The position numbers and the translations under genes were made by a program. Below, piece after piece: positions 37,076 through 60,265 of a stretch of DNA of 64,000 nt. Positions within the stretch are counted from its first letter, which is position 1. Each line of letters begins with the position of its first letter. Origin of the DNA: an uncultured Flavobacteriales bacterium. GTDB taxonomy: Bacteria > Bacteroidota > Bacteroidia > Flavobacteriales_F > PHOS-HE28. A model generated the notes under the pieces. The model did not search any database. It was not told where the DNA came from and saw only the letters and a program-made list of their open reading frames with translations. The stretch lies in NCBI GenBank assembly GCA_937872175.1, contig CALMPI010000042.1, positions 1-64,000 of the forward strand, written 5' to 3'.

Positions 37076-37774
37076 TCAGCCCACCTGCAACTTGAAGCCC
37101 ACGCCGTGCACGTTCACGATCTGCACCGAGGCATCCGCCTTCAGGTACTTCCGCAGCCGGCTGATGAACACGTCGAGGCTGCGGCCGAGGAAGTAGGTAT
37201 CGTCGCCCCACACCATGTTGAGCACCAGTTCCCGCGGGAGCACCTGGTCCTGGTGCATGCACAGCAGGCGCAGGACGTCGGCCTCCTTGCGGGTGAGCTT
37301 GCGGTCGCCGCCGGGATGCTTCAGGCTCAGGTCGCGATGATCGAAGAGGTAGCTGCCCAGCTCGAACCGTTCGCGCTGACGCTTGTCCTCGCCCTTGCCC
37401 TTGGTGCGGCGCAGGATGGCCTCGATGCGCAGCACGAGCTCCTCATGGCTGAACGGTTTGGTGAGGTAGTCGTCGCCGCCGGCCTTGAAACCCGCGATGC
37501 GGTCCTCCGTCTGGCTCTTGGCCGTGAGGAAGACGATCGGCACCTGTTCGTTGGTGATGCGGATGTCCTCCGCCAGGCTGAAGCCGTCCTTCTGGGGCAG
37601 CATCACGTCCAGCACGCAGAGGTCATAGGTGTGGCTGTTGAAGTAGCGGAGCCCCTCCTTGCCGTCGCGGCACAGGTGCACCGTGTAGCCCTTGCGGGCC
37701 AGGGCGTCCTGGATGACGAAGCCCAGGTTGGGGTCGTCCTCCACCAGCAGGATGTGGCCTTTGCTGTCGCTCAT
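37076..37774 (-). CDS. OmpR-family response regulator
   Basis: 232 residues. The receiver domain has ILLVEDDPNLGFVIQ, the phosphoacceptor in LCVLDVMLPQKDG (Asp ~54), and KPFSHEELVLRIEAIL. The winged-helix C-terminal domain has LTRKEADVLRLLCMHQDQVL and SLDVFISRLRKYLKADASVQ. It overlaps the upstream kinase gene by 4 bp, so the two form a two-component pair. It resembles RprY-type regulators of Bacteroidota, but I would not assign the name from sequence alone. Confidence 0.94.
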   Translation of the reverse strand: MSDSKGHILLVEDDPNLGFVIQDALARKGYTVHLCRDGKEGLRYFNSHTYDLCVLDVMLPQKDGFSLAEDIRITNEQVPIVFLTAKSQTEDRIAGFKAGGDDYLTKPFSHEELVLRIEAILRRTKGKGEDKRQRERFELGSYLFDHRDLSLKHPGGDRKLTRKEADVLRLLCMHQDQVLPRELVLNMVWGDDTYFLGRSLDVFISRLRKYLKADASVQIVNVHGVGFKLQVG

Positions 37775-39102
37775 GGGGATGGGGTGTGGCGGGGAAGGAG
37801 CAGGGTGAACCGGCTGCCCTTGCCGGGTTCGCTGTGCACACGCACCGAACCCTGGTGCGCCTTGATCACCTGTTGCACATGATGAAGGCCCAGGCCGAAG
37901 CCTTTGACGTCGTGCACGTTGCCGGTGGGCACGCGGTAGAACCGCTCGAAGACGTGCCGCAGATGCTCACGGGCGATGCCGATGCCGTGGTCGGCCACCT
38001 CCACCGCCACATCGCCGCCATCCTCCCGCGTGGACACGGTGATCCGCGGCGGATCGGTGCTGTACTTGATGGCATTGTCCACCAGGTTGGCCAGCGCGTT
38101 GGAGAGGTGCACGCGATCGCCTTTCACCATGGGCTGCGTGGCACGCAGGTCGAGCGCGAACTCTCCTTTCCGTTCCTCCAACACCAGGGTGAAGGACGCG
38201 GTCACCTCGCGGATGAGCGCATGCAGGTCGACGAGCTCGGTCCTCAGGGATGGGCCGTCGCGTTCCAGCGTGGTGAGCTGCAGCACGCGATCCACCTGGG
38301 CCCGCAGGCGTTCGGTCTCGCTCCGGATGATGCGGGCGTAGGCCGCCAGCCGGTCCGGCTCGCGCACGATGGCCGGGTCGGCGATCACCTCGCTGCTGAG
38401 CGCGATGGTGCTGATCGGCGTCTTCAGCTCGTGCGTCATGTTGCCGATGAAGTCGTTCTTCATCTCGCTCAGGCGCTTCTGCCGCATGATCATCCATACG
38501 CTGTAGGCGAAGAAGCCGAAGACGATGAGGGTGACGATGGCCGGGTAGATCCACGTGCCGCTGCTCGCCGGCTCGGGGCTCCACAGGGCGCTGTGCCGCC
38601 GGGGGAAGTACACTCCGAAGTAGTGACCGTCCTTGTCCAACTTCATCAGCTCCGAATGGGTGGTGTCCGCCGGCACGGAGTCCAGGCCCACATAGTTGCC
38701 GTACACGATGGAATCGGTGAAGCAGTCATAGATGCCGTATTCGAAGTCCTCGCTGATGCCCCTGCGCTGGAACTCCTTCTTCAGCATGGATTCGAGCAGG
38801 TAGGGGTGGAGCGTGTCGTTGATGGTGACCACGAAGTAGTTGGGCCGCTCCTGCTTCACGGCGTCGAACAGGTCGGAGGGGTCCTTGTTGATCGACAGGA
38901 TGCGCTCGGTGACGTCGGTGAGCGCGATCACCACACGGTCGTTGAACTGCTTGTCGAGCTGCACCTGCTGCTGGCGCTGCAGGGTGAGCTGCTCGCGCTG
39001 CATGCGGAAGGCGCGGTCCAGCCACAGGATCTGGATGAGCACCACGCCCACCACGCTCAACGTGGCAAGGATCACCAAGGTGGCCAGTCCGCGGCGCTTC
39101 AT
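37771..39102 (-). CDS. Sensor histidine kinase (HisKA type)
   Basis: 443 residues with two membrane helices (LATLVILATLSVVGVVLIQI, ~5-24, and IYPAIVTLIVFGFFAYSVWM, ~178-197) enclosing a periplasmic sensor region. The H-box is NMTHELKTPISTIALSS (phospho-His ~219). The catalytic domain shows LVDNAIKYSTDPPRI (N box), VADHGIGIAREHL (G1) and GFGLGLHHVQQVIKAHQGSV (G2). No HAMP domain is evident. It is the partner of the overlapping OmpR-type regulator. A TAACATTG box (39111-39118, minus) ends 8 nt before the ATG, suggesting a very short leader. Confidence 0.94.
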   Translation of the reverse strand: MKRRGLATLVILATLSVVGVVLIQILWLDRAFRMQREQLTLQRQQQVQLDKQFNDRVVIALTDVTERILSINKDPSDLFDAVKQERPNYFVVTINDTLHPYLLESMLKKEFQRRGISEDFEYGIYDCFTDSIVYGNYVGLDSVPADTTHSELMKLDKDGHYFGVYFPRRHSALWSPEPASSGTWIYPAIVTLIVFGFFAYSVWMIMRQKRLSEMKNDFIGNMTHELKTPISTIALSSEVIADPAIVREPDRLAAYARIIRSETERLRAQVDRVLQLTTLERDGPSLRTELVDLHALIREVTASFTLVLEERKGEFALDLRATQPMVKGDRVHLSNALANLVDNAIKYSTDPPRITVSTREDGGDVAVEVADHGIGIAREHLRHVFERFYRVPTGNVHDVKGFGLGLHHVQQVIKAHQGSVRVHSEPGKGSRFTLLLPRHTPSP

Positions 39103-39165: not shown

Positions 39166-40743
39166 ATGGTCGCTCCCACCTTCTTCCGCTGGTCGCTCCT
39201 GGGCCTGGTGGTGGTGGTGCTGGCCGGCCTCGGCCTCGACCTGATGGAGGTGGACGCGGCCCAGTACGCGGCCATGACGCAGGAGATGATGGACAGGGGT
39301 GACCTCCTCCATCTGTATTTCCGTGGTGCCGATTATCTGGACAAGCCCCCGCTCCTGTTCTGGAGCGCCACGGTCTCGCACTCGGCGTTCGGCGTGAACG
39401 ATTGGAGTTACCGTCTTCCCTCCGTCATGGCCGCCTTCTTCGGCCTGTGGGCCTTGTACCGGTTCACCCTGTTGCACGACGACGCGGACTGTGCGCGCCG
39501 CTCCGTGCTGGTGATGGGATGCAGCGCGGCCTTCCTGCTGATGACGAACGATGTCCGCACCGACACCCTGCTCACCGCAGCGGTGATCGGCACCATCTGG
39601 ACAGGCTCGGTGTGGATGGAGCACCGTCGCTGGTGGGCGCTGGCAGGCTGCGGTGTGGCGCTGGGTGCGGGGCTGCTGGCCAAGGGGCCCATCGCTGCCG
39701 TGGCACCGGCCCTCGCGCTTGGGCTTGACGCCGCCTGGCGCGGTCGATGGTCCCGCCTGTTCGACCCCGCCTGGTCCGTGGTGGCCGCGATCGCGGGCCT
39801 TATGCTGGTGCCCATGCTCATCGGGCTTTACGAACAGCACGGCCTGCATGGCATCCGCTTCTTCTTCTGGGAACAGAGCTTCGGCCGCATCACCGGCGAG
39901 AACCGCTGGAAGGACGACTCCACTCCGCTCTACTTCCTTCACGAGCTGCCCTGGCTGATGCTGCCTTGGACCCTGTTCCTGGTCGCCGGGCTGGTCCTTG
40001 CGTTCCGCCAGATGAAGGCCGACCGGGAGCGTGTGTCCCTGTTCGGAGGGTTGTCCGTGCTGATCGCCTTGTCGTTCTCGCAGTTCAAACTGCCGCACTA
40101 CATCTATGTGACCCTTCCGCTCTTCGCCGTGCTGGCCGCGCGCGGCATGCGTGACCTCGGCCGGGGATGGTGGCGTGCCCAGCTGGTGGTGCTCGCCGTG
40201 CTGCTCGGCGTGGTCATGGTGCTCTGCGGGTGGTCCTTTGCGTCGCCTCGAGGGGCGGCGTTCGCCGTGGCTGCCGGCCTGGGCATCCCCTGGGTCCTGC
40301 GGGGATGGCGGAAGGCCGCACCGACACCGGTGCTCATCCGCAGCGTGGCGACCCTCCTCCTGGGCGGCCTTGCGCTCAACCTGCATGTGTACCCCACGCT
40401 CCTGTCCTTTCAGGCCAATGCCCACGCTGGCCGTTGGGCCGCTCAGCATGGACTGGGCCCTGACCGGTTCCTTGGGCTGCAAACAGCGGGTACGGCGCTG
40501 GACCGCTACGCGGGCTTTGCCGTGCCCTGGCTCTCCAACGTGGAGGAGGCCGCCCGAGTGATCGGTCCAGGGGTGCACATCTACACGGATCCCGCCCACG
40601 AAGAAGCCTTGCGCGCCGCTGGTCATGCGCCTGTACGTGTCGCTGCTTGGCCGGATGCCCGGGTGCAGGTGATCGGGCTCGAGTTCCTTGTACCGGACCG
40701 GCGGGGTGCTCTGCTGCACGAGCGAGTGATCCTTCGCTTCTGA
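39166..40743 (+). CDS. ArnT/PMT-type family 39 glycosyltransferase
   Basis: 525 residues with about ten membrane helices. Near the N-terminus it has MEVDAAQYAAMTQEMMDRGD followed by YFRGADYLDKPPLLFW (~residues 45-65), the motif region of family 39 lipid-linked sugar transferases (ArnT, dolichyl-phosphate mannosyltransferase-like). NDVRTDTLLTAAVI and GAGLLAKGPIAAV follow. Such enzymes move a sugar from an undecaprenyl carrier to lipid A, proteins or other glycans in the periplasm. The substrate is not predictable. It is monocistronic, divergent from the histidine kinase gene. TCCTTTCG ends 4 nt before the ATG. Confidence 0.88.
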   Translation: MVAPTFFRWSLLGLVVVVLAGLGLDLMEVDAAQYAAMTQEMMDRGDLLHLYFRGADYLDKPPLLFWSATVSHSAFGVNDWSYRLPSVMAAFFGLWALYRFTLLHDDADCARRSVLVMGCSAAFLLMTNDVRTDTLLTAAVIGTIWTGSVWMEHRRWWALAGCGVALGAGLLAKGPIAAVAPALALGLDAAWRGRWSRLFDPAWSVVAAIAGLMLVPMLIGLYEQHGLHGIRFFFWEQSFGRITGENRWKDDSTPLYFLHELPWLMLPWTLFLVAGLVLAFRQMKADRERVSLFGGLSVLIALSFSQFKLPHYIYVTLPLFAVLAARGMRDLGRGWWRAQLVVLAVLLGVVMVLCGWSFASPRGAAFAVAAGLGIPWVLRGWRKAAPTPVLIRSVATLLLGGLALNLHVYPTLLSFQANAHAGRWAAQHGLGPDRFLGLQTAGTALDRYAGFAVPWLSNVEEAARVIGPGVHIYTDPAHEEALRAAGHAPVRVAAWPDARVQVIGLEFLVPDRRGALLHERVILRF

Positions 40744-40765
40744 AGTCCCTTCCCTTTTTTCCACC

Positions 40766-40838
40766 CGGCCGTGAACACTCGGCCGAACACTGTGTTTAAG
40801 GTTGGTCCAAAAACCCTAAACACCTGCCCTTCGGCAGG
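40766..40838 (+). promoter_or_regulatory. 5' region of the giant repeat gene: two hairpins and a small direct repeat
   Basis: A direct repeat, CGGCCGTGAACACT then CGGCCGAACACT, lies at 40768-40791. It is followed by an inverted repeat GTGTTTAAGG (40792-40801) / CCCTAAACAC (40814-40823), 9 of 10 paired, and a short hairpin CCTGCC-CTTC-GGCAGG (40823-40838). These lie just before the ATG at 40862 and could be leader-RNA structures or protein-binding sites. Their role is unknown. Confidence 0.4.
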
Positions 40839-40861
40839 AACCCATCCAACCCCTTCCGATC

Positions 40862-43800
40862 ATGGAGCACAATCCTCCCCCTGGTCCGACGGCGCGCCGT
40901 GCACGGCGGGCGCGTCGAGCGACCGTGGCGACCGCCTTGTTGCTGGCGGCCGCCCCGATCAGCGCCCAGACCTACTGTCCCAGCGACGGTGGCTCGGGCA
41001 ACACGTTCAACATACAGCGCGTGCAGTTCGCTGGGATCGACAATACGTCCGGCGACAACAACGGGTACGGGGACTTCACCGCCCTGTCCGCCACGGTCAC
41101 CCCAGGCACGTCGAACACCATCGCGCTGGACGGCAACGGTCTATTCTTCCTGCAGCGGCGCTATCGTGTGTGGGTGGACTGGGACCGCAACGGGGTGTTC
41201 GCCGGCAGTGAGCTGGCCTTTCAGGGTTCAGGCTTCGGACAAGTGAACGGCAGCATCGCCGTGCCTGCCAACGCACCGGCAGGTCCTACGCGCATGCGCG
41301 TCAGCATGAGCTCCCTGATCTATCAGGGTCCCTGTGCCAATTTCTCCCTGGGTGAAGTGGAGGATTATACGGTGAACGTCACGGCCGATTGCGTGGCCGA
41401 CGCAGGAACGCTCACCACCCAGAAACCGGAGGTCTGCTTCGACGCAGGGGGGACCTTCGTTTCCGGTGAAGCGGCCACGGATCCCGTGGTGCCCGCCGGG
41501 TATCAGGTCCTCTACGTCCTCACCGAAGGCCCGGGTCTGGTGATCCAGGCCGTGAACGGGGATAGTGAGTTCCAAGTGAACACGCCGGGCAACTACACCA
41601 TCCATACCCTGGTGTACGATCCAGCCACGCTTGATCTCTCCATCGTTCAGTTCGGTGTCACCACCGGCTTCGATGTGAACGGTCTGCTCATTCAAGGCGG
41701 TGGCAGCATCTGCGCTGCGCTGGATGTGGCTGGTGTTCAGGTTTCCGTGCTCGCTCCCGATGCCGGTACGCTGAGCGGCGGGACCTCCCTGTGCAGCAAC
41801 GGCGGTGCGCCGGTGACGCTGACGGCCACGCCGAGCGGCGATGCCAACGTGCCCGCCGGCTACCAGACGGTGTACGTGCTGACACAGGGCGCTGGTCTCA
41901 CGATCGTGAACGCGGGTCCGAACCCGAGCTTCGACGTGACGGATGACGGCCTGTACACGATCCACACGCTGGTGTACGACCCGGCCACGCTCGATCTCTC
42001 GATCGTGCAGCTGGGCGTGACCACGGGCTTTGATGTGAACGGCCTGCTCGTGCAGGGCGGTGGCAGCATCTGCGCCAGCCTGGATGTGCCGGGTGCGGCC
42101 TTCAATGTGAGCAGCCCGAGCGCCGGCACCCTGAGCGGTGGCGCCTCGATCTGCGGCGATGGCAACGCGGTGACGCTGACGGCCACGCCGAACGGCGACG
42201 CCAACGTGCCCGCCGGCTACCAGACGGTGTACGTGCTGACGCAAGGCGCCGGTCTCACGATCGTGAACGCCGGTCCGAACCCGAGCTTCGACGTGACCGA
42301 CGACGGCCTGTACACGATCCACACGCTGGTGTACGACCCCGCCACGCTCGATCTCTCGATCGTGCAGCTGGGCGTGACCACGGGCTTTGATGTGAACGGC
42401 CTGCTCGTGCAGGGCGGTGGCAGCATCTGCGCCAGCCTGGATGTGCCGGGTGCGGCCTTCAATGTGAGCAGCCCGAGCGCAGGCACCCTGAGCGGTGGTG
42501 CCTCGATCTGCGGCGACGGCAACGCGGTGACGCTGACGGCGACCCCGAACGGCGACGCCAACGTGCCCGCCGGCTACCAGACGGTGTATGTCCTGACACA
42601 GGGCGCTGGTCTCACGATCGTGAACGCGGGTCCGAACCCGAGCTTCGACGTGACCGACGACGGCCTGTACACGATCCACACGCTGGTGTACGACCCCGCC
42701 ACGCTCGATCTCTCGATCGTGCAGCTGGGCGTGACCACGGGCTTTGATGTGAACGGCCTGCTCGTGCAGGGCGGTGGCAGCATCTGCGCCAGCCTGGATG
42801 TGCCGGGTGCGCAGTTCAATGTGGCCAGCCCGAACGCCGGCACCCTGAGCGGTGGCGCCTCGATCTGCGGCGATGGCAACGCGGTGACGCTGACGGCCAC
42901 GCCGAACGGCGACGCCAACGTGCCCGCCGGCTACCAGACGGTGTACGTGCTGACGCAAGGCGCCGGTCTCACGATCGTGAACGCCGGTCCGAATCCGAGC
43001 TTCGACGTGACGGACGATGGCCTGTACACGATCCACACGCTGGTGTACGATCCGGCGACGCTGGACCTGAGCATCGTACAGCTGGGCGTGACCACGGGCT
43101 TTGATGTGAACGGCCTGCTCGTGCAGGGCGGTGGCAGCATCTGCGCCAGCCTGGATGTGCCGGGTGCGGCCTTCAATGTGAGCAGCCCGAGCGCCGGCAC
43201 CCTGAGCGGTGGCGCCTCGATCTGCGGCGATGGCAACGCGGTGACGCTGACGGCCACGCCGAACGGCGACGCCAACGTGCCCGCCGGCTACCAGACGGTG
43301 TACGTGCTGACGCAAGGCGCCGGTCTCACGATCGTGAACGCCGGTCCGAATCCGAGCTTCGACGTGACGGACGATGGCCTGTACACGATCCACACGCTGG
43401 TGTACGATCCGGCGACGCTGGACCTGAGCATCGTACAGCTGGGCGTGACCACGGGCTTTGATGTGAACGGCCTGCTCGTGCAGGGCGGTGGCAGCATCTG
43501 CGCCAGCCTGGATGTGCCGGGTGCGCAGTTCACGGTGGGTACGCCGAGCGCAGGGACCCTGACCGCGGATGCCGAAGAGGTCTGTTTCGAGCAGGGTACG
43601 GTGATGATCTCCGCGACCCCGAACGGTGACGCCAACGTGCCGGCCGGTTACCAGACGATCTACGTGCTGACGCAAGGCGCGGGCCTCGTGATCCAGAACG
43701 TGAACGCGGTACCGGAATTCGAGGTGAGCGCGTTGGGCACATACACGATCCACACCCTGGTGTACGACCCGGCCACGCTCGATCTCTCGATCGTGCAGCT

Positions 43801-45382
43801 GGGCGTGACCACGGGCTTTGATGTGAACGGCCTGCTCGTGCAGGGCGGTGGCAGCATCTGCGCCAGCCTGGATGTGCCGGGTGCGGCCTTCAATGTGAGC
43901 AGCCCGAGCGCCGGCACCCTGAGCGGTGGCGCCTCGATCTGCGGCGATGGCAACGCGGTGACGCTGACGGCCACGCCGAACGGCGACGCCAACGTGCCCG
44001 CCGGCTACCAGACGGTGTACGTGCTGACGCAAGGCGCCGGTCTCACGATCGTGAACGCCGGTCCGAATCCGAGCTTCGACGTGACGGACGATGGCCTGTA
44101 CACGATCCACACGCTGGTGTACGATCCGGCGACGCTGGACCTGAGCATCGTGCAGCTGGGCGTGACCACGGGCTTCGATGTGAACGGCCTGCTGATCCAG
44201 GGCGGCGGCAGCATCTGCGCCAGCCTGGACGTGCCGGGTGCGCCCTTCAACGTGAGCAGCCCGAGCGCCGGCACCCTGACCGCCGCCTCGGCCGATGTCT
44301 GCCTGGAGAACGGGGTGGCCACGCTGGCCGCCACGGCCAATGGTGACGCCAACGTGCCCGCCGGCTACCAGACGGTGTACGTGCTGACACAAGGCGCTGG
44401 TCTCACGATCGTGAACGCGGGTGCGAACCCGAGCTTCGATGTGACGGCCGATGGCCCGTACACGATCCACACGCTGGTGTACGACCCGGCCACGCTCGAT
44501 CTCTCGATCGTGCAGCTGGGTGTGACGACCGGCTTCGACGTGAACGGTCTCCTCGTGCAGGGCGGTGGCAGCATCTGCGCCAGCCTGGACGTACCGGGCG
44601 CAGCCTTCAACGTGAGCGTCTGCACGGACGAGTGCCTGGCGAGCGCCGGTACCATCGCGCCGGAGGACTTCATCGAGTGCCGTGTCGGTGGCAGCGCCAC
44701 GCTGGTGGGACTGCCCGGCGGTGATGCCGTGGTGCCGGCCGGCTACCAGACCCTGTACGTGCTGACGCGCGGCACCGGGCTCACGATCCAGCAGGTGAGC
44801 GCCACGCCGGTGTTCACGGTGCAGCAACTGGGTCTGTACCGCATCCACACGCTGGTGTACGATCCGGCCACGCTGGACCTGAGCATCGTGCAGCTGGGCG
44901 TGACCACGGGCTTCGACGTCAACGGCCTGCTCATCCAGGGCGGCGGCAGCATCTGCGCCAGCCTTGATGTCACCGGCGCCCCGCATCTCGTCGTGGGTCC
45001 GTTCCTCTGCGCCATCCTGAACGGTGTGTTCGGTGTGGACCAGGACGGCACCCAGTCGCTGGTGCTGAGCGACGGCCGTGTGGTGGACGAGGAACTGGTG
45101 AAGGCCATCGAACAGGACATGCCGCTGGCCGACCTGAACCTGTGGCCGAACCCTGCCCGCGATGTGCTCAACATCGCGCTCAACACCTATGCGGAGGCCC
45201 GCGTGGAGATGAGCGTGATCAACATCCTGGGCCAGGAGGCCATCCCTGCCCTGGCGGTGAACGCCGGCAAGGGTGAGACCCGGACCACGATCGATGTGGC
45301 CGGTCTCGTACCCGGCCAGTACATCCTGCGCCTGACGATCGGCGATGGGGTCATCACGCAGCGGTTCACGAAAGTGGACTGA
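40862..45382 (+). CDS. Giant T9SS-secreted protein with ten tandem repeats
   Basis: 1506 residues. A signal peptide with an unusually Arg-rich start (TVATALLLAAAPISAQ, cleavage ~residue 36) precedes a GEVED domain (~40-178, RVWVDWDRNGVFAGSEL; ANFSLGEVEDYTVNVTADC). Ten repeats of ~119 residues follow (~214-1375), each with YVLTQGAGL, YTIHTLVYDPATLDLSIVQ and GFDVNGLLVQGGGSICASLDV. A T9SS type A sorting domain ends it (LWPNPARDVLNI ... GQYILRLTIGD). It should be exported by Sec and then secreted to or attached on the cell surface by T9SS. An adhesin or matrix role is plausible but not shown. A terminator follows. Confidence 0.9.
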   Translation: MEHNPPPGPTARRARRARRATVATALLLAAAPISAQTYCPSDGGSGNTFNIQRVQFAGIDNTSGDNNGYGDFTALSATVTPGTSNTIALDGNGLFFLQRRYRVWVDWDRNGVFAGSELAFQGSGFGQVNGSIAVPANAPAGPTRMRVSMSSLIYQGPCANFSLGEVEDYTVNVTADCVADAGTLTTQKPEVCFDAGGTFVSGEAATDPVVPAGYQVLYVLTEGPGLVIQAVNGDSEFQVNTPGNYTIHTLVYDPATLDLSIVQFGVTTGFDVNGLLIQGGGSICAALDVAGVQVSVLAPDAGTLSGGTSLCSNGGAPVTLTATPSGDANVPAGYQTVYVLTQGAGLTIVNAGPNPSFDVTDDGLYTIHTLVYDPATLDLSIVQLGVTTGFDVNGLLVQGGGSICASLDVPGAAFNVSSPSAGTLSGGASICGDGNAVTLTATPNGDANVPAGYQTVYVLTQGAGLTIVNAGPNPSFDVTDDGLYTIHTLVYDPATLDLSIVQLGVTTGFDVNGLLVQGGGSICASLDVPGAAFNVSSPSAGTLSGGASICGDGNAVTLTATPNGDANVPAGYQTVYVLTQGAGLTIVNAGPNPSFDVTDDGLYTIHTLVYDPATLDLSIVQLGVTTGFDVNGLLVQGGGSICASLDVPGAQFNVASPNAGTLSGGASICGDGNAVTLTATPNGDANVPAGYQTVYVLTQGAGLTIVNAGPNPSFDVTDDGLYTIHTLVYDPATLDLSIVQLGVTTGFDVNGLLVQGGGSICASLDVPGAAFNVSSPSAGTLSGGASICGDGNAVTLTATPNGDANVPAGYQTVYVLTQGAGLTIVNAGPNPSFDVTDDGLYTIHTLVYDPATLDLSIVQLGVTTGFDVNGLLVQGGGSICASLDVPGAQFTVGTPSAGTLTADAEEVCFEQGTVMISATPNGDANVPAGYQTIYVLTQGAGLVIQNVNAVPEFEVSALGTYTIHTLVYDPATLDLSIVQLGVTTGFDVNGLLVQGGGSICASLDVPGAAFNVSSPSAGTLSGGASICGDGNAVTLTATPNGDANVPAGYQTVYVLTQGAGLTIVNAGPNPSFDVTDDGLYTIHTLVYDPATLDLSIVQLGVTTGFDVNGLLIQGGGSICASLDVPGAPFNVSSPSAGTLTAASADVCLENGVATLAATANGDANVPAGYQTVYVLTQGAGLTIVNAGANPSFDVTADGPYTIHTLVYDPATLDLSIVQLGVTTGFDVNGLLVQGGGSICASLDVPGAAFNVSVCTDECLASAGTIAPEDFIECRVGGSATLVGLPGGDAVVPAGYQTLYVLTRGTGLTIQQVSATPVFTVQQLGLYRIHTLVYDPATLDLSIVQLGVTTGFDVNGLLIQGGGSICASLDVTGAPHLVVGPFLCAILNGVFGVDQDGTQSLVLSDGRVVDEELVKAIEQDMPLADLNLWPNPARDVLNIALNTYAEARVEMSVINILGQEAIPALAVNAGKGETRTTIDVAGLVPGQYILRLTIGDGVITQRFTKVD
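41501..44990 (+). repeat. Ten tandem coding repeats, mostly 357 bp
   Basis: Unit starts (codon of the Tyr in GYQTxYVL) are at 41501, 41861, 42218, 42575, 42932, 43289, 43649, 44006, 44366 and 44744. Spacings are 357, 360 or 378 bp. Units 2-5 and 7-8 are almost identical at the DNA level, including at third codon positions, while the first and last are diverged. This implies recent duplication or gene conversion inside the array. Confidence 0.92.
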
Positions 45383-45400
45383 TCACGAGGTCCGGTGAAG

Positions 45401-45457
45401 GCGGGGCCCGGGTGGATCCGACGCAGGTCGGTGAAGCCCGGGCCTCGCTGATTTTTT
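45401..45457 (+). terminator. Terminator after the giant repeat gene
   Basis: GCGGGGCCCGGGT and GCCCGGGCCTCGC form an imperfect GC-rich stem (about 11 of 13 pairs) around a 22-nt loop, followed by a run of six T (45452-45457). Confidence 0.75.
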
Positions 45458-45495
45458 CATGTTGCAGTTCCATGACCCACCACCGGGCTTTCCCC

Positions 45496-45527
45496 TTGTT
45501 CCTGCCCGTGGACCCTCGCTTGCTTTG
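45496..45527 (+). promoter_or_regulatory. Candidate promoter of the haem-uptake-like locus
   Basis: TTG (45496-45498), a 21-nt spacer and TTGCTTTG (45520-45527; 7 of 8 to TAnnTTTG) match the Bacteroidota -33/-7 arrangement. The predicted transcript start is about 15 nt before the ATG at 45547. Confidence 0.45.
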
Positions 45528-45546
45528 CACCCCCGAACACCGACCC

Positions 45547-46764
45547 ATGCGTTCATCGCTCCTCCTCGCCTCCGTCCTTCTCGTCCACGGCCTTCACGCC
45601 CAGACCCCCGTCACCGTCAGCATCGCCCCGGGCTACGCCGATCAGGTGTGGTACAGCCTGCAGAACGGGGTGGTGGGCACCGCCCCGGTGAACAACTGGG
45701 ACCTGGCCTTCGAGATCCAGGGCTTCACGGCCAGTGTGCTGGTGAACACCCAGAAGGCCGGCGTCGAAGTGGTGAAGAGCCCCTTCAGCATCGCCGGCTG
45801 GAACAACGTGGACACCACGGGGCTCTCCACCTGGCCGCGTGCCCATAATGCGGACACCAGCTGGAGCTTCGGCGCCCTCAATCAGGGGCCCTTCGCCGAT
45901 GAGTTCGACCTGGGCTGGGGCAACTACAACATGATCACCCATGTGGTGGCCGGCGACACCATCTTCCTGATCCACCTCGCCAACGGCAGCTGGCGGAAGC
46001 TGCGCATCGATGGCCTGGCCACGGGCACCTACACCTTCACCCACGCCAACCTCGACGGCAGCGACGAGCTTGTCGGTCAGATCAACAAGGCGGCATACAG
46101 CACGAAGAACTTCGCCTACTGGGACCTGGAGACCCACACGGCGGTGGACCGCGAGCCGGCCAATGACAGCTGGGACCTCACCTTCGTGAAGTACGTCGCC
46201 TTCATCCCGCAGCCCTACGGGGTCACAGGGGTGCTCCAGAACAAGGGCATCGAGGCCGCCCGGGCCGCCGGTGTTCCTCCTGCGGATGCCGACTGGACCG
46301 CCGCCGCGTACAGCGCGCACATCAACACGATCGGCTTCGATTGGAAGCGCTTCGACATGCAGACCTTCCAGTGGGTGATCGAGGATTCATTGAGCTACTT
46401 CGTCAAGGACCTGGGAGGCAATGTGTGGCATGTGGCCTTCACGGGCTTCGGTGGCAGCACCTCCGGGACCATCGACTTCTCCCAGGAGCTCGTGAGCGCC
46501 ACCGGTCTGGCCGACCGCGACCGGCCGGCGGACCTCCACCTCTGGCCGAACCCCACGCCCGATGGCACCTTCACCATCGATGCCGGGGAGGCCCGCATCC
46601 TGGGCCTGGAGGTGCTGGACGCATCCGGCCGCGTCGTGCGCACCCACGGGGCCATGAGCGCCGTGCCGTTCACCATGGAGCTGGGGGGGCTTGGAGCCGG
46701 CAGCTACACCGTGCGTCTCCTCACCGACCGTGGCCCTGCCATGGCCCGGCTGCTTCGCCAGTGA
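45547..46764 (+). CDS. HmuY-like protein with T9SS type A sorting domain
   Basis: 405 residues from the ATG at 45547. The signal peptide is SSLLLASVLLVHGLHAQ. The body resembles the HmuY family: VTVSIAPGYADQVWYSLQNG and NNWDLAFEIQGFTASVLVNT near the start, then a second WDLTFVKY and NTIGFDWKRFD (~265). The last ~75 residues are a T9SS type A sorting domain (LHLWPNPTPDGTFTIDAGEA; GSYTVRLLTDRG). HmuY proteins capture haem on the outer face and pass it to a TonB receptor. The usual form is a lipoprotein, so T9SS sorting is a variation. The receptor and a second HmuY-like gene follow. Confidence 0.8.
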   Translation: MRSSLLLASVLLVHGLHAQTPVTVSIAPGYADQVWYSLQNGVVGTAPVNNWDLAFEIQGFTASVLVNTQKAGVEVVKSPFSIAGWNNVDTTGLSTWPRAHNADTSWSFGALNQGPFADEFDLGWGNYNMITHVVAGDTIFLIHLANGSWRKLRIDGLATGTYTFTHANLDGSDELVGQINKAAYSTKNFAYWDLETHTAVDREPANDSWDLTFVKYVAFIPQPYGVTGVLQNKGIEAARAAGVPPADADWTAAAYSAHINTIGFDWKRFDMQTFQWVIEDSLSYFVKDLGGNVWHVAFTGFGGSTSGTIDFSQELVSATGLADRDRPADLHLWPNPTPDGTFTIDAGEARILGLEVLDASGRVVRTHGAMSAVPFTMELGGLGAGSYTVRLLTDRGPAMARLLRQ

Positions 46765-46830
46765 GCGTATCCTGACGCGACCGTGACCGTGCGCACGCGC
46801 ACGTGTGCGCTCCTTTGCAAGGTCCTTCCG

Positions 46831-49071
46831 ATGGGTCCCTTCCTGCGCGTCCTCACGGCCCTCCTCCTGACCGTTGCCACCTGCCCGGTCATCCTGCACG
46901 CCCAGGTCCGGCTCATCTGCATGGCCGAGAACGGGGCTTCCCTTCCGTTCGCAAGCGTCACCTGGCAGCAGGACAACGGACCGACCTCGGTGCAAGCCGA
47001 TGACCGCGGTGCACTGACGGTGCCGGTGGATGCCTCGCGCCCCCTGCTGGTGCACGTGCACATGATGGGCTTTGCGGCCTTCGCCGATACGCTCATCGGA
47101 GCCGGTCCACACGCGCTTCGCCTGCGGCCGGCATCCATCCACATGCCCGAGCTCGTGGTCACCGGACAGTATGGCGCCGGCATCGCGGAGAACGCGGTGC
47201 ATCGGGTGCGCGTGATCGACCGCGGGCGGATCGATCGCATGGCCGCCAACACCTTGGGCGAGGCCCTGCGCAATGAGCTCACCGTGCGCCTCGGACAGGA
47301 CAATATCCTCGGGACCGCGGTGAGCATGCAGGGACTGGGCGGCGAGAACGTGAAGGTGCTGGTGGACGGTGTTCCGGTGATCGGGCGGCAGGATGGCAAC
47401 CTCGATCTGGCACAGCTTGACCTCACGGGCATCGAGCGGGTGGAGGTGGTGGAGGGTCCGCTGAGCGTCAATTACGGCACCAACGCACTGGCCGGCACGA
47501 TCAACCTGATCACCCGCAAGCGCTCCAACGACCGCTCCAGCGCCAGGGCCACGGCCTACGCCGAGCACATCGGCCGGCTCAACCTCACCGGCACGGCCAC
47601 CGCCCATCTTGGGAAACACGACCTCGTGATCACCGGCGGCCGCAACGCTTTCGCGGGTTGGGACCCCTCCACCGGCGGCTGGTACGACCCTTCGCCCACC
47701 CTCGCCGACAGCACGCGTCACCAGCAATGGAAACCCCGTGAGCAGTACTTCGCCCGCCTCAACCACCGTTGGCGCGGCGCGCACTGGGACCTGGGGTACA
47801 AGGGCGAGGCCTTCCAGGACCGCATCACCAACCGGGGTCGTCCGCGCGCGCCCTATCACGAGACGGCCTTCGATGAGCAGTACCTCACGCACCGTCTGGA
47901 TAACGCGGTCTTCGCCGAGGGCCGGTGGGACCGGGGACGCCGGTTCAATGCCCTGCTCGCACACCAGCGCTACCGCCGCATCCGCAACACCTGGTTCCGT
48001 GACCTCACCGACCTGAGCGAACAGCTGGTGACCACGCCCGGCACGCAGGACACGTCGCGGTTCACGCTCACCAACCTGCGCGCCACATGGGCCTCGGCAC
48101 CCGACAGTGCCCGGCTGGCGTGGGAGGTGGGCACCGACCTCAACCATGAGACCGGGGAGGGCGATCGGATGGCGGGTGACGGCGAGACCATCACCGACCT
48201 GGCGGCCTTCGCCAGCGCGGAGTACCGCCCGTGGAGCGGCCTCACCCTGCGGCCCGGCCTTCGATACGCCTACAACACCCGGTACGAAGCCCCGTTGATC
48301 CCCTCGTTGAACGTCCGCTGGACACCGGCACCGTCGCTCACCGTCCGCGCCGCCTATGCCCGAGGGTTCCGCGCGCCTTCCTTGAAGGAACTGTACCTCT
48401 TCTTCGTGGATGTGAACCACGACATCGTCGGCAATCCCGAGCTGCGTCCGGAGCGGGCGCACCATGGCAGCGCCGGCCTCACCTATCGCACACAACGGGA
48501 GCGGGGCACCTGGTCCGCCGAGCTCACGGCCTTCCTCAACGAGGTGGAGGACGTCATCAGCCTGGCCCAGGTGGGCGGCACGCGCTACACCTACGTCAAC
48601 ATCGGCGGGCTGCGCACCTATGGAGGCACGGTGGGCGCAGGGTGGGATGACGGACGCTGGGCCCTGTCCGCCGGAGCCTCCATCACCGGCAGGGAGGATG
48701 CCATCTCGCCCGCCGCCCTGTGGAGCCCCGAGGCCCGCGCCTCGCTGACCTGGAACCACGGCCGGATGGGCCTTACCGCATCCCTCTTCTACAAGTACCA
48801 GGGAGAGCTCGCCAATTACATCGCCGATGCCGACGGCGCCTTGACCCGCGGCACGATCGGCGCCTACCACCTGGCCGACGCCACCCTGACCAAGGCCTTC
48901 CTCGACCGGCGCATCAGCCTCTCCGTGGGCTGCAAGGACCTGTTCGATGTACGGAACCTGGCGGCGACCATGGCCGAAGGGGCCCACTCGGGCGGTGCCA
49001 CCGCCGTGCCGATGACCACCGGGCGCACCTGGTTCATGCGCCTTGATGTTGAATTGCGCAAGCGATCCTGA
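46831..49071 (+). CDS. TonB-dependent outer-membrane receptor (HmuR-like)
   Basis: 746 residues from the ATG at 46831. The signal peptide LTALLLTVATCPVILHAQ supports this start over a GTG at 46783. A short carboxypeptidase-regulatory-like N-terminal domain is followed by the plug (~115-240, AVSMQGLGGENVKVLVDGVP; VEVVEGPLSVNYGTNALAGT) and a 22-strand-type barrel with FRAPSLKELYLFFVDVNHDI (~515), ending ...MRLDVELRKRS. It imports a metal complex, most likely haem or a siderophore given the flanking HmuY-like genes. It starts 66 bp after the first of them and ends 2 bp before the second. Confidence 0.9.
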   Translation: MGPFLRVLTALLLTVATCPVILHAQVRLICMAENGASLPFASVTWQQDNGPTSVQADDRGALTVPVDASRPLLVHVHMMGFAAFADTLIGAGPHALRLRPASIHMPELVVTGQYGAGIAENAVHRVRVIDRGRIDRMAANTLGEALRNELTVRLGQDNILGTAVSMQGLGGENVKVLVDGVPVIGRQDGNLDLAQLDLTGIERVEVVEGPLSVNYGTNALAGTINLITRKRSNDRSSARATAYAEHIGRLNLTGTATAHLGKHDLVITGGRNAFAGWDPSTGGWYDPSPTLADSTRHQQWKPREQYFARLNHRWRGAHWDLGYKGEAFQDRITNRGRPRAPYHETAFDEQYLTHRLDNAVFAEGRWDRGRRFNALLAHQRYRRIRNTWFRDLTDLSEQLVTTPGTQDTSRFTLTNLRATWASAPDSARLAWEVGTDLNHETGEGDRMAGDGETITDLAAFASAEYRPWSGLTLRPGLRYAYNTRYEAPLIPSLNVRWTPAPSLTVRAAYARGFRAPSLKELYLFFVDVNHDIVGNPELRPERAHHGSAGLTYRTQRERGTWSAELTAFLNEVEDVISLAQVGGTRYTYVNIGGLRTYGGTVGAGWDDGRWALSAGASITGREDAISPAALWSPEARASLTWNHGRMGLTASLFYKYQGELANYIADADGALTRGTIGAYHLADATLTKAFLDRRISLSVGCKDLFDVRNLAATMAEGAHSGGATAVPMTTGRTWFMRLDVELRKRS

Positions 49072-49073
49072 CC

Positions 49074-50036
49074 ATGCGTGCCACCGCACTGCTCCCGCTC
49101 TCCATCCTGCTCCTCTCCGGATGCATCAAGGATGAACTCCCCGTGCCCGCCCGCCCGCGTGGGGAGGCGGCCCAGGTGCAGCTTTGCATGGGCAGCGGCT
49201 ATCAGGACCAGCTGTGGGTCGACATCTCCTCGCGCACGGTGGTGCGCAGCAACCCGAAGACCACCTGGGACCTGGCCTTCGAGAGCGGCCCGGACCAGTG
49301 GCGGGTGTGGCTCAACGGCAGCCGCCTGATGACCGCCTGGTCGATCGGCCCGGGTGACATCACGGCGGTGATGGATACGGCGGGCATGGCCCAAGGGCGC
49401 CGCATCGACGCGCCCAGCGGCCACCCGGACAGCACCGCCATCGGGGACTGGCGCGGTGCGCAGGACATCCACCTGATCGACCTGGGCTACAATGCCTTCG
49501 GCGCGCACCTTGGCGTTCGGAAATTGCAGCTGCTTGAGGTCACCGCCTTGACGTACACGTTCCGGACCGCCCTGCTGGACGGCAGCGGCATGCAGGAGCA
49601 CACCCTGGCCAAGTCCGTCAGCAGCGGCTCCACCATGTTCAGCTTCGCTTCCGGGCCGGTGGACGTGGAGCCGTCCGCAGGCAGCTGGGACATGGTCTTC
49701 ACGCAGTACACGCACCAGTTCCACGAGCCCTTCATCCCCTACATCGTCACAGGCGTGCTCACCCCGCCGGGGGTCCGTGTGGCGCGCATCGCCGCTGCCG
49801 ACATGGCCACGGTGAGCCTATCGGACACCTTGCAGCATCCCTTCAGCACTGCACGGGACGCCATCGGCTTCGACTGGAAGACCTATTCGTTCGACGACGG
49901 CGCCTACACGGTGGACCCCTCCATCGTGTACATCATCCATGATGCGCAGGGCCTGTTCCACAAGCTCCACTTCCTGGACTTCTACGACGATCTGGGGACC
50001 GTGGGCTGCCCCACCTGGGAGGTGCGGGAGCTGTAG
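49074..50036 (+). CDS. HmuY-like lipoprotein
   Basis: 320 residues. The lipobox LLLSGC (Cys ~17) gives a lipid-anchored protein. The pattern parallels the T9SS protein upstream: CMGSGYQDQLWVDISSRTVV, TTWDLAFESGPDQWRVWLNG, a second WDMVFTQYTHQFHEPFIPYI and DAIGFDWKTYSFDD. This is the HmuY family (haem-binding lipoproteins of Bacteroidota), here without a T9SS domain. It starts 2 bp after the receptor gene, so it is cotranscribed. The two HmuY-like proteins may act in series or on different haem sources. That is inference. Confidence 0.82.
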   Translation: MRATALLPLSILLLSGCIKDELPVPARPRGEAAQVQLCMGSGYQDQLWVDISSRTVVRSNPKTTWDLAFESGPDQWRVWLNGSRLMTAWSIGPGDITAVMDTAGMAQGRRIDAPSGHPDSTAIGDWRGAQDIHLIDLGYNAFGAHLGVRKLQLLEVTALTYTFRTALLDGSGMQEHTLAKSVSSGSTMFSFASGPVDVEPSAGSWDMVFTQYTHQFHEPFIPYIVTGVLTPPGVRVARIAAADMATVSLSDTLQHPFSTARDAIGFDWKTYSFDDGAYTVDPSIVYIIHDAQGLFHKLHFLDFYDDLGTVGCPTWEVREL

Positions 50037-52677: not shown

Positions 52678-53034
52678 TCACTCCTCGTCGCGACGGTAGG
52701 AGCGCTCGCCCCGATCGCGGAAACCGCCGCGGTCGTTGCGGTAGCCGCCACGGTCGCCACCACCTCCTCCGCGGAAGGGGCGGTCGCCCTCCGGACGGGG
52801 GCGGGCCTCGTTCACCACGAGGTCACGGCCATGGAAGTTCTTGCCGTTGGTGGCCTCGATGGCCTGACGGCCGGCGTTGTCATCGGACATCTCCACGAAT
52901 CCGAAGCCGCGGCTCCGGTTGGTGGCCTTGTCCATGATGATCTTGGCCGAGGTGACCTCGCCGTAAGGCTCGAAGAGCTCACGGAGGTCCTGGTCCTTCA
53001 CAGAGTAAGGGACGTTGGCGACGTAAATGTTCAT
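52678..53034 (-). CDS. RRM-family RNA-binding protein with Gly/Arg-rich tail
   Basis: 118 residues from the ATG at 53034. One RRM domain covers residues 1-80, with RNP2 in MNIYVANVPYSV and RNP1 in RSRGFGFVEM (~41-50). A tail of about 35 residues rich in Gly, Arg and Asp follows (GGGGGDRGGYRNDRGGFRDR). Such small RRM proteins are common in Bacteroidota and cyanobacteria, where several are induced by cold. They bind mRNA, and the RGG-like tail adds RNA affinity. An upstream promoter predicts a leader of about 75 nt. The gene is monocistronic with its own terminator. Confidence 0.93.
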   Translation of the reverse strand: MNIYVANVPYSVKDQDLRELFEPYGEVTSAKIIMDKATNRSRGFGFVEMSDDNAGRQAIEATNGKNFHGRDLVVNEARPRPEGDRPFRGGGGGDRGGYRNDRGGFRDRGERSYRRDEE

Positions 53035-53114
53035 GCGTTCTACTGACGTGTTTGGTTGGTCTTTGCCTGTGCCGGGGTGGTCTCGCCAAAGCACACCACG
53101 GTCGTTGGGCGGCA

Positions 53115-53144
53115 CGAAAGTAGGCAGAAGTCCGATCCCGGCAA
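53115..53144 (-). promoter_or_regulatory. Promoter of the RNA-binding protein gene
   Basis: On the minus strand TTG (53142-53144), a 19-nt spacer and TACTTTCG (53115-53122; 7 of 8 to TAnnTTTG) form a complete Bacteroidota promoter. The leader to the ATG at 53034 would be about 75 nt, longer than for other genes in the window. Confidence 0.6.
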
Positions 53145-53371
53145 GTACCCCCCGCCCGGCAGGCCGTTCCCCTTGGGGCTTCCCGACCCCGTCCCGGTGC
53201 GACGTGCCACCCGACAGGAGGTGCATCGCCGGGGCCGGCGGCCACACCGGTCAGGCCCGGCGCCGCTCTGCAGCCCGCCGGTCGGTCCCCGTTCGTCCCT
53301 GCCGGTCATCCACCCACCGGTCCATCCCTTTCGCCGCGGTCCGGCGCCCTCACAGCCCTCAGTTTCGGCCC

Positions 53372-54619
53372 ATGGACCGCGTCATCGACCCCAGGCCGGC
53401 CCGGCGAAGGCGGGTGATCGCGTTCGGAGGAACGGTCGTCGTGTTCCTCGTCGCCCTGGCCCTCTGGGGCGGCTCGTTCGCCACCAGCCGGGTCCGTGTG
53501 GAGACCGCCAGGGTCACCATCGGTGTGGTGGAACGGGGCCTCTTCAAGGAGTTCATCCCCGTCACCGGCACGGTGCAGCCCATCCAGACGGTGTTCCTGG
53601 ACGCGCTCGAAGGGGGCACCGTGAAGCACCGGTTCGTGGAGGACGGCACGCACGTGAAGGCGGGCGACCCCATCATCGAGCTCAGCAACCCGCAGTTGCA
53701 CATGGACGCCATCAACCGCGAGGCACAGTTGCTCGACCAGCAGAACAACCTGCGCAACACCCGTCTGGCGATGGACCAGCAGACCACCCGACTGCGGGAC
53801 GAACTGCTGAACCTGGACAAGGAACTGAAGCGGCTCGAACGCGACCAGCGGGTCAACGACCGTCTGCTCCGTGATTCACTGCTCGCGCAGAACACCTACA
53901 TGGCCGACCGGGAGAACCTGGAGTACATGCGGGCGAAGCGCATGCTGCTGGCCGCGAACGTCCGCAGTGATTCGCTCTTCCGCCTCAGCCAGATGGGCTC
54001 CATCAGCAGCAACCTCGAGCTGATCCAGCAGAACCTCCACTTCCTGCGCGAGAACCTGCAGAACCTGGTGATCACGGCGCCGATCGACGGGCAGCTCAGC
54101 GGGCTCAACGTGGAGCTGGGCCAGACGCGGCAGCGCGGTGAACGCATCGCCCAGATCGACGTGCTGGAGCGCTTCAAGGTGCGCGCACGGATCCCCGAGC
54201 ACTATGTGAGCCGTGTCGTCATCGGCCTTCAGGGCACCTTCATCCATGCCGGTTCGGAGCACACCATCGAGGTGTTCAAGGTGTATCCCGAAGTGAGCAA
54301 CGGCGAGTTCGATGTGGACCTGCGGTTCACGGGTGCGACGCCGGCCGACATCCGCCGCGGGCAGACCTTCCAGGTGCGGCTCCAGCTCAGCGAGGACATG
54401 GAGGCCGTGATGCTGCCACGCGGCCCCTTCTTCCAGGATACCGGCGGCCAGTGGGTGTTCGTGGTCGATGCCGAAGGCAGGGCCACCCGGCGCGAGCTGA
54501 AGCTGGGCCGACAGAACCCCGATATGTACGAGGTGATCGAAGGACTGCGGCCCGGCGATCGCGTCGTGACCAGCCGATACAGCGCGTTCAACGATGCGGA
54601 CGAGCTCCTGATCCAATAG
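53372..54619 (+). CDS. HlyD/MacA-type periplasmic adaptor
   Basis: 415 residues from the ATG at 53372. The longer frame upstream is intergenic. One membrane helix (VIAFGGTVVVFLVALALWGG, ~residues 14-33), a lipoyl/barrel-sandwich half (VTGTVQPIQTVFLDALEGGT and VEDGTHVKAGDPIIELSNPQ), a coiled-coil hairpin (~110-210), the second half-motif NLVITAPIDGQLSGLNVELG (~231) and a beta-barrel. It bridges an inner-membrane transporter to an outer-membrane channel. ATPase and permease genes follow, making a MacAB-like exporter. No TolC-type gene is in the window. CAGTTTCG ends 4 nt before the ATG. Confidence 0.92.
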   Translation: MDRVIDPRPARRRRVIAFGGTVVVFLVALALWGGSFATSRVRVETARVTIGVVERGLFKEFIPVTGTVQPIQTVFLDALEGGTVKHRFVEDGTHVKAGDPIIELSNPQLHMDAINREAQLLDQQNNLRNTRLAMDQQTTRLRDELLNLDKELKRLERDQRVNDRLLRDSLLAQNTYMADRENLEYMRAKRMLLAANVRSDSLFRLSQMGSISSNLELIQQNLHFLRENLQNLVITAPIDGQLSGLNVELGQTRQRGERIAQIDVLERFKVRARIPEHYVSRVVIGLQGTFIHAGSEHTIEVFKVYPEVSNGEFDVDLRFTGATPADIRRGQTFQVRLQLSEDMEAVMLPRGPFFQDTGGQWVFVVDAEGRATRRELKLGRQNPDMYEVIEGLRPGDRVVTSRYSAFNDADELLIQ

Positions 54620-54695
54620 CAGCCACGGTCCTGCGCACCTCGCGTGTTGCAGGACCTGCCAACACGGAACGTCGATCACGATAACCCCCCACCCC

Positions 54696-55391
54696 ATGAG
54701 CCTCCTGAGCACCCGCAACCTCTCGAAGATCTATCGCACGGACACCGTGGAGACCACCGCCCTTCATGACGTGAGCATCGAGATCGACCAGGGCGAGTTC
54801 GTGGCGATCATGGGACCCAGCGGCTGCGGCAAGTCCACATTGCTCAACATCATCGGACTGCTGGATCCACCCAGCAGCGGCAGCTACCTCGTGAACGGCG
54901 AGGACGTGAGCGGCTACAACGAGCGGCGGCGCGCCGAAGTGCGCAAGAGCACCATCGGCTTCGTCTTCCAGAGCTTCAACCTGATCGACGAGCTCACCGT
55001 GGATGAGAACATCGAGCTTCCCTTGGTCTACACGCGGATGGGCAAGGCGGAACGCCGCCAGCGCGTGCAGCAGGCGATGGACCGCATGAACATCGCCCAC
55101 AGGGCGAAGCACTTCCCCCAGCAGCTCAGCGGCGGACAGCAACAGCGCGTGGCCATCGCCCGGGCCGTGGTGAACAGCCCCAGGCTCATCCTGGCCGACG
55201 AGCCCACGGGCAACCTGGACAGCGCGATGGGCGAGGAGGTGATGGGCCTGCTCACCGAGCTGAACAAGGCCGGCACCACCGTCATCATCGTCACGCACAG
55301 CCTCCGCGATGCGGGCTACGCCCAGCGGACGATCAAGCTGCTCGACGGAAAGGTGGTGGCGGGCAACGTGCCGGCGCAGGCGCTGCTTTGA
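54696..55391 (+). CDS. ABC transporter ATPase (MacB/LolD type)
   Basis: 231 residues. Walker [12 protein letters not shown] (~residues 37-47), Q-loop [20 protein letters not shown], signature [14 protein letters not shown] (~142), Walker [14 protein letters not shown] (~164), and the switch His in VIIVTHS. It powers the FtsX/MacB-type permease encoded 10 bp downstream. These three-gene units export peptides, lipoproteins or antibiotics by mechanical coupling rather than by moving substrate through the membrane domain. Confidence 0.95.
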
Positions 55392-55401
55392 GAACGATGC
55401 C

Positions 55402-57819: not shown

Positions 57820-57828
57820 ACCAACGCC

Positions 57829-59037: not shown

Positions 59038-59125
59038 TCGCGCACCGGCCGACGGCGTCCGTGGCAGAATGAACGGTACGCCATCGAACGGGATGGTCGC
59101 TGCTTCGCCCGCAGCACTTTCGTGC

Positions 59126-59995: not shown

Positions 59996-60185
59996 TCGGT
60001 CCCGATCGCACACCGGCCGGTGTGTCGCTCTGGCGGACCGTGCACCCGGCGCCCCGCTGCTGTTCCGGGTGGCCACCACCGTAGGGGAAGGGCACGATGA
60101 ACCGTTCATCACCGAGGCAACGCCAGCGCACCGGATCCTTCGCTACTGCAGAACGGAGAGGCACCTTGCATGTCCCTTGTCGCGG

Positions 60186-60238
60186 GTTACGAGTTGGCGT
60201 GTTACGCGTTCGCACGCGCCCAACACGCCACACGTAAC
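60186..60238. repeat. Imperfect inverted repeat upstream of the second permease
   Basis: GTTACGAGTTGGCGTGTT (60186-60203) and AACACGCCACACGTAAC (60222-60238) pair along nearly their full length. The GTTACG and GGCGTGTT blocks are perfectly inverted and the loop is 18 nt. No T run follows. It could be a mobile-repeat remnant or an operator for the gene at 60266. Confidence 0.55.
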
Positions 60239-60265
60239 GGATCAACCCGCAACTGAGCTCCCCCC

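Follow-up and report, generated by a model that had tools for sequence, protein, structure and literature searches.

How a bacterial gene comes to contain ten tandem copies of a 357 bp coding unit, in which the middle copies are near-identical and the outer ones diverged, and what kind of protein it encodes, are the questions raised by an open reading frame in the 64,000 nucleotide stretch of uncultured Flavobacteriales DNA analysed here, referred to as the window. The best explanation, which is probably correct, is a surface stalk of ten uncatalogued Ig-like domains that is exported by the type IX secretion system (T9SS), homogenised by recombination, held by selection, and changeable in length.

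The array gene and its neighbourhood

In a preliminary description of the window the protein was called giant and secreted. At 1506 residues it is large rather than giant, while its secretion agrees with the probable signal peptide and the T9SS tail (Table 1). The sorting tail scores 40.9 bits against TIGR04183, for which the cut-off is 23. The genome also has the SprA translocon, as a 2459-aa frame (E 7.3e-154), and at least 150 scored T9SS type A tails over the cut-off, which would mean that an export machine exists for the tail of the array protein; from the sorting-domain score and the presence of SprA this protein is predicted to be T9SS type A cargo. A tail of this type predicts export and usually anchoring at the surface. 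All ten unit matches in the genome are within the array gene, with no second site.

Table 1. Positions in the window of the array gene, its domains and repeat units, and the neighbouring genes
Feature	Position	Strand	Basis or remark
Whole gene, 1506-aa predicted secreted repeat protein	40862..45382	+	ORF list; open frame confirmed in source genome
Probable signal peptide, residues 1-36	40862..40969	+	Basic stretch, hydrophobic core, ...ISAQ/TYC; by eye from translation
GEVED domain, residues 101-172	41162..41377	+	PF20009, E 4.3e-20, over gathering score
Ten-unit repeat array, residues 181 to 1387	41402-45022	+	Between GEVED and sorting domain
Repeat unit 1	41402..41761	+	Edge; positional orthologue in relatives
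Repeat unit 2	41762..42121	+	First third edge-like, 3' part shared
Repeat unit 3	42122..42478	+	Homogenised
Repeat unit 4	42479..42835	+	Homogenised; other silent haplotype in bases 1-150
Repeat unit 5	42836..43192	+	Homogenised
Repeat unit 6	43193..43549	+	Homogenised
Repeat unit 7	43550..43909	+	First half diverged, second half shared
Repeat unit 8	43910..44266	+	Homogenised
Repeat unit 9	44267..44644	+	Edge; longer linker with extra Cys pair, CTDEC
Repeat unit 10	44645..45022	+	Edge; positional orthologue in relatives
T9SS type A sorting domain, residues 1427-1504	45140..45373	+	PF18962 E 6.8e-10; TIGR04183 E 1.5e-10; both over cut-off
PMT_2-type glycosyltransferase, upstream neighbour	39166..40743	+	PF13231 E 1.1e-18; kept beside array in relatives
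HmuY-like protein, downstream neighbour	45412..46764	+	PF14064 E 1.1e-5, just below gathering; synteny
TonB-dependent receptor, downstream neighbour	46783..49071	+	PF00593, PF07715; synteny
HmuY protein, downstream neighbour	49074..50036	+	PF14064 E 2.2e-11; synteny

The array is detected as a tandem repeat of period 357 (8.4 copies, score 4386) and contains ten in-register copies, which are, in order, 120, 120, 119, 119, 119, 119, 120, 119, 126, and 126 residues in length. The near-identical 357 bp coding repeats reported at the outset are therefore present, although the array had been placed at 41501-44990 with fewer units, and both of these borders fall inside units. The longest exact repeats are 356, 334, 311, and 272 nt, several of them spanning unit borders, which rules out chance likeness. 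Any two of units 3, 4, 5, 6, and 8 agree at 322-348 of the 357 bases. One additional codon is present in unit 2, the first third of which is divergent; in unit 7 the first 64 residues are diverged and the 3' half is common to other units, and units 1, 9, and 10 are diverged. The contrast between an alike middle and diverged ends was thus correctly noted before; in the numbering used here the near-identical set consists of units 3, 4, 5, 6, and 8.

On the opposite strand, a 1252-aa ORF (41228-44986, -) spans the whole array. It is probably not a gene, as reverse ORFs of 900 and 979 aa are found elsewhere in this window of 66% GC, and the antisense frame is probably open because the high GC content and a period divisible by three keep it so. 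A scan of 40700-45600 for promoters and terminators found none. Just 5' of the glycosyltransferase and the array, and in the opposite direction, is a response regulator and histidine kinase pair (37076-39102, -). Further 3', at 53027-62668, a likely transporter cluster is made up of an HlyD-type protein, two MacB/FtsX-type permeases, and, between them, a rhodanese-domain protein.

The tail of the HmuY-like protein immediately 3' of the array gene scores 20.3 bits against TIGR04183, below the cut-off of 23. HmuY-like and TonB genes adjoin the array in several loci of the genus (L040, L041, L042, L045, L074, L086) and each unit has a near-invariant His, as might be expected if array and neighbours cooperated in the uptake of haem or metal. 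Beside the arrays of other genera, tblastn at E 1e-10 finds no homologue of TonB or HmuY within the flanks that were fetched, which would suggest that the domain is not tied to them. With these neighbours kept only within the genus, the partnership is rejected as quite improbable.

The repeat domain

The preliminary description could not name the repeat domain and proposed a profile search with one unit. The domain still has no name: in Pfam and NCBIfam there is no family that matches more than one of 68 diverse units, even at E 0.1. These 68 comprise four window units and 64 others, the latter from a set of 102 made by clustering at 60% identity, of which 75 were listed. Scans of the whole protein give summed weak matches to unrelated models, such as Ig_SIBA-E_2nd, GO-like_E_set, and DUF7490, some of them over the whole-protein cut-off, but no single stretch passes alone. 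A PDB sequence search with the unit profile matches no chain at E up to 10, and a single-protein query likewise names nothing. As these searches give no consistent match, membership of a known domain family, which the preliminary description had named as a refuting outcome, is rejected. The literature search found no paper for the peptide IHTLVYDP, nor, in the portions of text that it covered, any description of the unit.

Of 58 genomes searched, 29 have the unit at E 0.001 or better: the source genome, 27 of the 34 remaining members of its genus, and one of the 23 that belong to other genera. At 1e-6, it is found in five of 395 genomes sampled evenly across the phylum, the source genome among them. 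A scan of contigs from 84,980 species confirmed 84 relatives, of which 80 were kept, as 78 loci, and all of these loci carry Bacteroidota names.

AlphaFold2 models the single unit with a pLDDT of 88.3 and the two-unit tandem with a mean pLDDT of 96.8 and pTM of 0.86. In these models each unit is one domain, a beta-sandwich with a loop-and-helix insertion preceding the last strand. The fold matches of the single unit are to Ig, Fn3, and PKD-like domains and are middling (best Z 8.0, rmsd 2.0 over 75 residues; best Foldseek E 0.058); at Z of 8.0 or less they may reflect only a common arrangement. Matches of the two-domain model are to rods of the titin, NCAM, and contactin type (best Z 9.1, rmsd 3.9, 168 aligned). 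The models are consistent with the unit being an Ig-like sandwich of an uncatalogued family, tandem units of which would form a rod.

Conservation was assessed over 228 non-redundant units, obtained from 489 matches by de-duplication at 70% and gap filtering. The Cys of ICASLDV is present in all 228 and the His of YTIHT (His67) in 226, while several F, L, P, G, and GGG positions are conserved at 95-99%. A count of Cys parity was made in 256 uninterrupted periods, from which L011-L038, being duplicates of named records, were left out. The number of Cys is even in 255 of these and the remaining period has three. The Cys pair near positions 11 and 103 is seen in 113 of the 256 periods, and the same pair with two more Cys in 95. 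Of the 47 periods without the first Cys, all 47 carry a Cys in the linker after the last strand. This pattern suggests that the invariant Cys is always bonded, with its partner in strand B or in the linker, and that each unit is probably stapled by one conserved disulfide. An unpaired invariant Cys, as seemingly present in 40 of the 228 units, is rejected, since by the even-number test the linker Cys replaces the missing partner. Some units have an extra Cys pair in the linker, as in the CTDEC at 44621-44644 in the window.

Concerted evolution and the length of the array

Bases 1-330 of units 3, 4, 5, 6, and 8 contain 26 codons with silent polymorphism. Along the unit, there are first 11 sites at which unit 4 differs, next 10 at which units 5, 6, and 8 are set against units 3 and 4, then one site with a third pattern, and finally 4 sites with a fourth, where unit 8 differs. 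The silent pattern therefore switches three times, while none of 100,000 permutations has as few switches, the permuted minimum being 7. Judged from these silent sites, a block mosaic of this kind is a signature of segment exchange between copies that were already diverged.

Three relatives that share the neighbours of the array (G033, G025, G005) were compared with it unit by unit. Window units 1 and 10 are closest to the first and last units of G033 and G025 (97% and 94% at the protein level), and against the sister species these edge units have dS 0.46-0.74 and dN 0.014-0.050. Unit 9 is closest to the second-last unit in both G033 and G025, and unit 2 has its best match in the second unit of G025 (97% versus 95%). 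In contrast, units 3-6 and 8 have their best match in their own genome (98-100% versus 90%), and the internal pairs of the window that were tested have dS of 0.01-0.28. The next relative, G005, has two internal units with no DNA difference across the 82 codons compared and with dS of 0.73-0.82 to the internal units of the window; its right end shows an order of unit types like that of window units 7-8-9-10. Homogenisation independent of that in the window array is seen in G005, G007, G024, and M315. There are two exceptions: in G009 all 8 units are closest to their own genome, four of them by small margins, and in G010 the units are mostly diverged. From these sequence comparisons, concerted evolution inside the array with positional orthology at its edges is real and well-supported. 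The recent expansion or conversion first proposed for this array is supported by the silent mosaic and by internal units that are closest to their own genome while edge units are closest to other species.

Could a single recent tandem duplication, with no continuing exchange and with older edge units, account for the same array? Units 5 and 6 have a dS of 0.01, as for fresh duplicates, and the 334-356 nt exact runs also fit; part of the pattern could have arisen from duplication and later drift with nothing else. This explanation is nevertheless unlikely. Within a unit the silent differences change from block to block, and some blocks but not others are common to units 3, 5, and 8, which would place the exchange after the copies diverged. 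Nor would it provide for the four relatives in which homogenisation is independent.

Not all of the likeness is of this origin. Units 2-7 and 9 encode one and the same protein sequence over a 46-codon core (YTIHT... to ...DVP), although 16 of the 46 codons differ silently between units 5 and 9. The earlier statement that the copies are the same even at silent sites therefore holds for units 5 and 6, with no silent difference at 109 codons up to the end of the core, and fails for units 5 and 9. In the first unit of one sister-species pair dN is 0.014 and dS 0.74. Silent divergence so far in excess of replacement divergence would mean that the protein likeness is also held by purifying selection, and the sequences point to purifying selection on the core with homogenisation of the internal copies on top of it.

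The number of units in complete ORFs of named relatives is 1-19 (31 ORFs), and uninterrupted arrays of the genus have 10 (the window), 8 (L118, in the single-contig genome G009), and 7 (L074). The variable repeat number, which had been anticipated for strains, is seen between species, and a constant copy number across relatives, which had been put forward as evidence to the contrary, is not. Within species, with one genome for each, the comparison comes down to a single pair above 99% identity, L118 and L075. These are 99.2-99.4% identical outside a gap at which 598 bases in L118 correspond to 13 N in L075, which means either that the strains truly differ or that one assembly is too short.

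Trouble with assembly of the array had also been foreseen. In 29 of 78 relative loci the array is within 60 nt of a contig end, versus 12.6 expected from a crude null, and in the three closest orthologues (G033, G025, and G005) the gene is in two pieces, broken in the array. Such breaks make the count of ten in the window less certain. That this count is an artefact, with the array collapsed or wrongly extended, would also fit with exact repeats of up to 356 nt, longer than the usual short reads, and with the difference of about 585 bases at the gap between L118 and L075. It is not, though, a probable explanation: unit-specific variants in codons 112-119 allow most copies to be placed, the 87,988-base contig continues for ~40 kb on either side of the array, and the domain, the edges, and the mosaic are independent of the exact number of units.

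Several arrays of the genus have a two-unit, A-B-A-B higher-order repeat, which the window array does not. In the left half of the arrays of L118:1596-4965, L074:4383-7353, L122, and L132, spacing alternates near 120/126, and units 1 and 3, and 2 and 4, are most alike within the genome. In G024 (L121:1200-12001) two adjacent genes, one with 9 and the other with at least 3 units, start with units that are similar, probably through local duplication of the repeat gene. In a marine MAG (L043:5115-7443) the array is in two adjacent frames, split near 6402, which is either an interrupted gene or an assembly error.

Function and comparison with known systems

In the preferred explanation, the T9SS would export the protein to the cell surface, where its middle would be a semi-rigid stalk of ten disulfide-stapled Ig-like domains. 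Because their DNA is nearly the same, the internal copies would keep being homogenised, gained, and lost, with unequal crossing-over or conversion between them making them alike and the same recombination inserting or deleting complete 119-residue units without loss of frame. Edge units, which are without a good partner on one side, would drift as ordinary orthologues, and amino-acid changes would be removed by purifying selection. With the middle copies made alike within a species, length would differ between species and short-read genomes would often break there. The stalk could change in length without loss of function, and its likely use would be to present the N-terminal GEVED region, and/or many repeat surfaces, away from the outer membrane. 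Anything beyond "extracellular stalk or adhesin" would be a matter of interpretation.

The GEVED head is not a constant part of these proteins. Of 14 relatives scanned at E 0.01, two have it (L092, L068) and none was found in L074, L118, L095, L089, L121, L061, L106, L067, L078, L077, L028, and L122. Of these, L074 shares the neighbours of the window array, so that this locus occurs both in headed and in headless form. Among the 25 complete ORFs that have three units or more, the array starts within 90 residues of the frame start in 8. In the window protein Pfam finds GEVED, with no known adhesive domain and no domain of any kind before it. With the head missing from some orthologues, the repeats themselves may bind, and the headless forms are the strongest point in favour of this and against a pure periscope reading (see the Periscope Proteins below).

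In its full form this alternative makes the repeats the binding part, with a ligand site in each unit, for example around His67 near the inserted loop, and with copy number setting avidity. The near-invariance of His67 and of the F, L, P, G, and GGG positions would suit it, as would a core protein that stays the same despite silent differences. These positions could equally be structural, serving the core, the turns, or the disulfide, and stalk domains might be as well conserved; the PDB search gives no solved relative by sequence, and no ligand has been seen. Binding by the repeats is on balance a possibility, weaker than the stalk explanation but to be taken seriously. More speculative, and rather doubtful, is a combination of the two: a new bacterial Ig-like family with a partner-swapping disulfide, forming head-optional multivalent adhesins of which reach and avidity are both set by in-frame recombination, a "poly-adhesin periscope" of T9SS Bacteroidota.

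The contrast between edge and middle units of the stalk gene is a clean natural record of concerted evolution in one bacterial gene. Surveys built on Pfam stalk domains would overlook proteins with this repeat, and short-read assemblies would cut or shorten them, so that their number and length variation in the Bacteroidota are probably underestimated.

Among T9SS adhesin filaments are SprB and GhpA, the grappling hook of Aureispira (PDB 9fls, 9fly, 9flw). GhpA is a large surface protein of the Bacteroidota, and the tandem model matches it with Z 8.3 (153 aligned, rmsd 5.0). It is rejected as a relative, this being a match at the level of fold, with a Z no better than that of titin and no PDB sequence match at E up to 10. 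Using known Pfam adhesive and stalk domains, a survey of fibrillar adhesins reports 581 Bacteroidetes proteins (PMC8286594), which resemble the window protein, in the parts of that report consulted, in having tandem stalk domains on a surface protein. As the survey relied on known Pfam domains and the unit matches none, such proteins would be missed by their repeats. The GEVED domain was defined from CshA-type adhesins, in which, according to the sections consulted, NR2 domains are always paired with a downstream GEVED (PMC10952558). The window protein is like these fibrillar adhesins in having GEVED (PF20009) directly before a tandem repeat stalk and unlike them in having no Pfam domain before GEVED and repeats that are not CshA_repeat.

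The closest comparison is with the Periscope Proteins, a class described as having long, highly identical tandem surface domains, variable in number and forming rods; the length variation has been proposed to come from intragenic recombination. Examples are SasG, Rib, Sgo_0707, CdrA, and CshA (PMC8201768, PMC9704523). As far as the class is set out in the portions consulted, the array protein shares its sequence features, with tandem domains of more than 50 residues, at least 80% identity, likeness at the DNA level, and short Pro-containing linkers; a predicted rod and a putative C-terminal anchor at the surface would be further points in common. It differs in having a T9SS tail, where Periscope Proteins have LPXTG, autotransporter, or other anchors, in a repeat that belongs to no Pfam family, and in the absence of a recognised adhesive head. 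Length variation is seen here between species; variation between strains or close homologues is the feature looked for in a Periscope Protein. The word stem "bacteroid" is absent from the main texts of both papers in the form consulted, and the array would extend the idea of a recombination-tuned, variable-length stalk to the Bacteroidota and the T9SS, which these texts do not mention. The kind of system is a known one, of which the domain, the predicted export route, the headless forms, and the putative swapping disulfide make this a variant.
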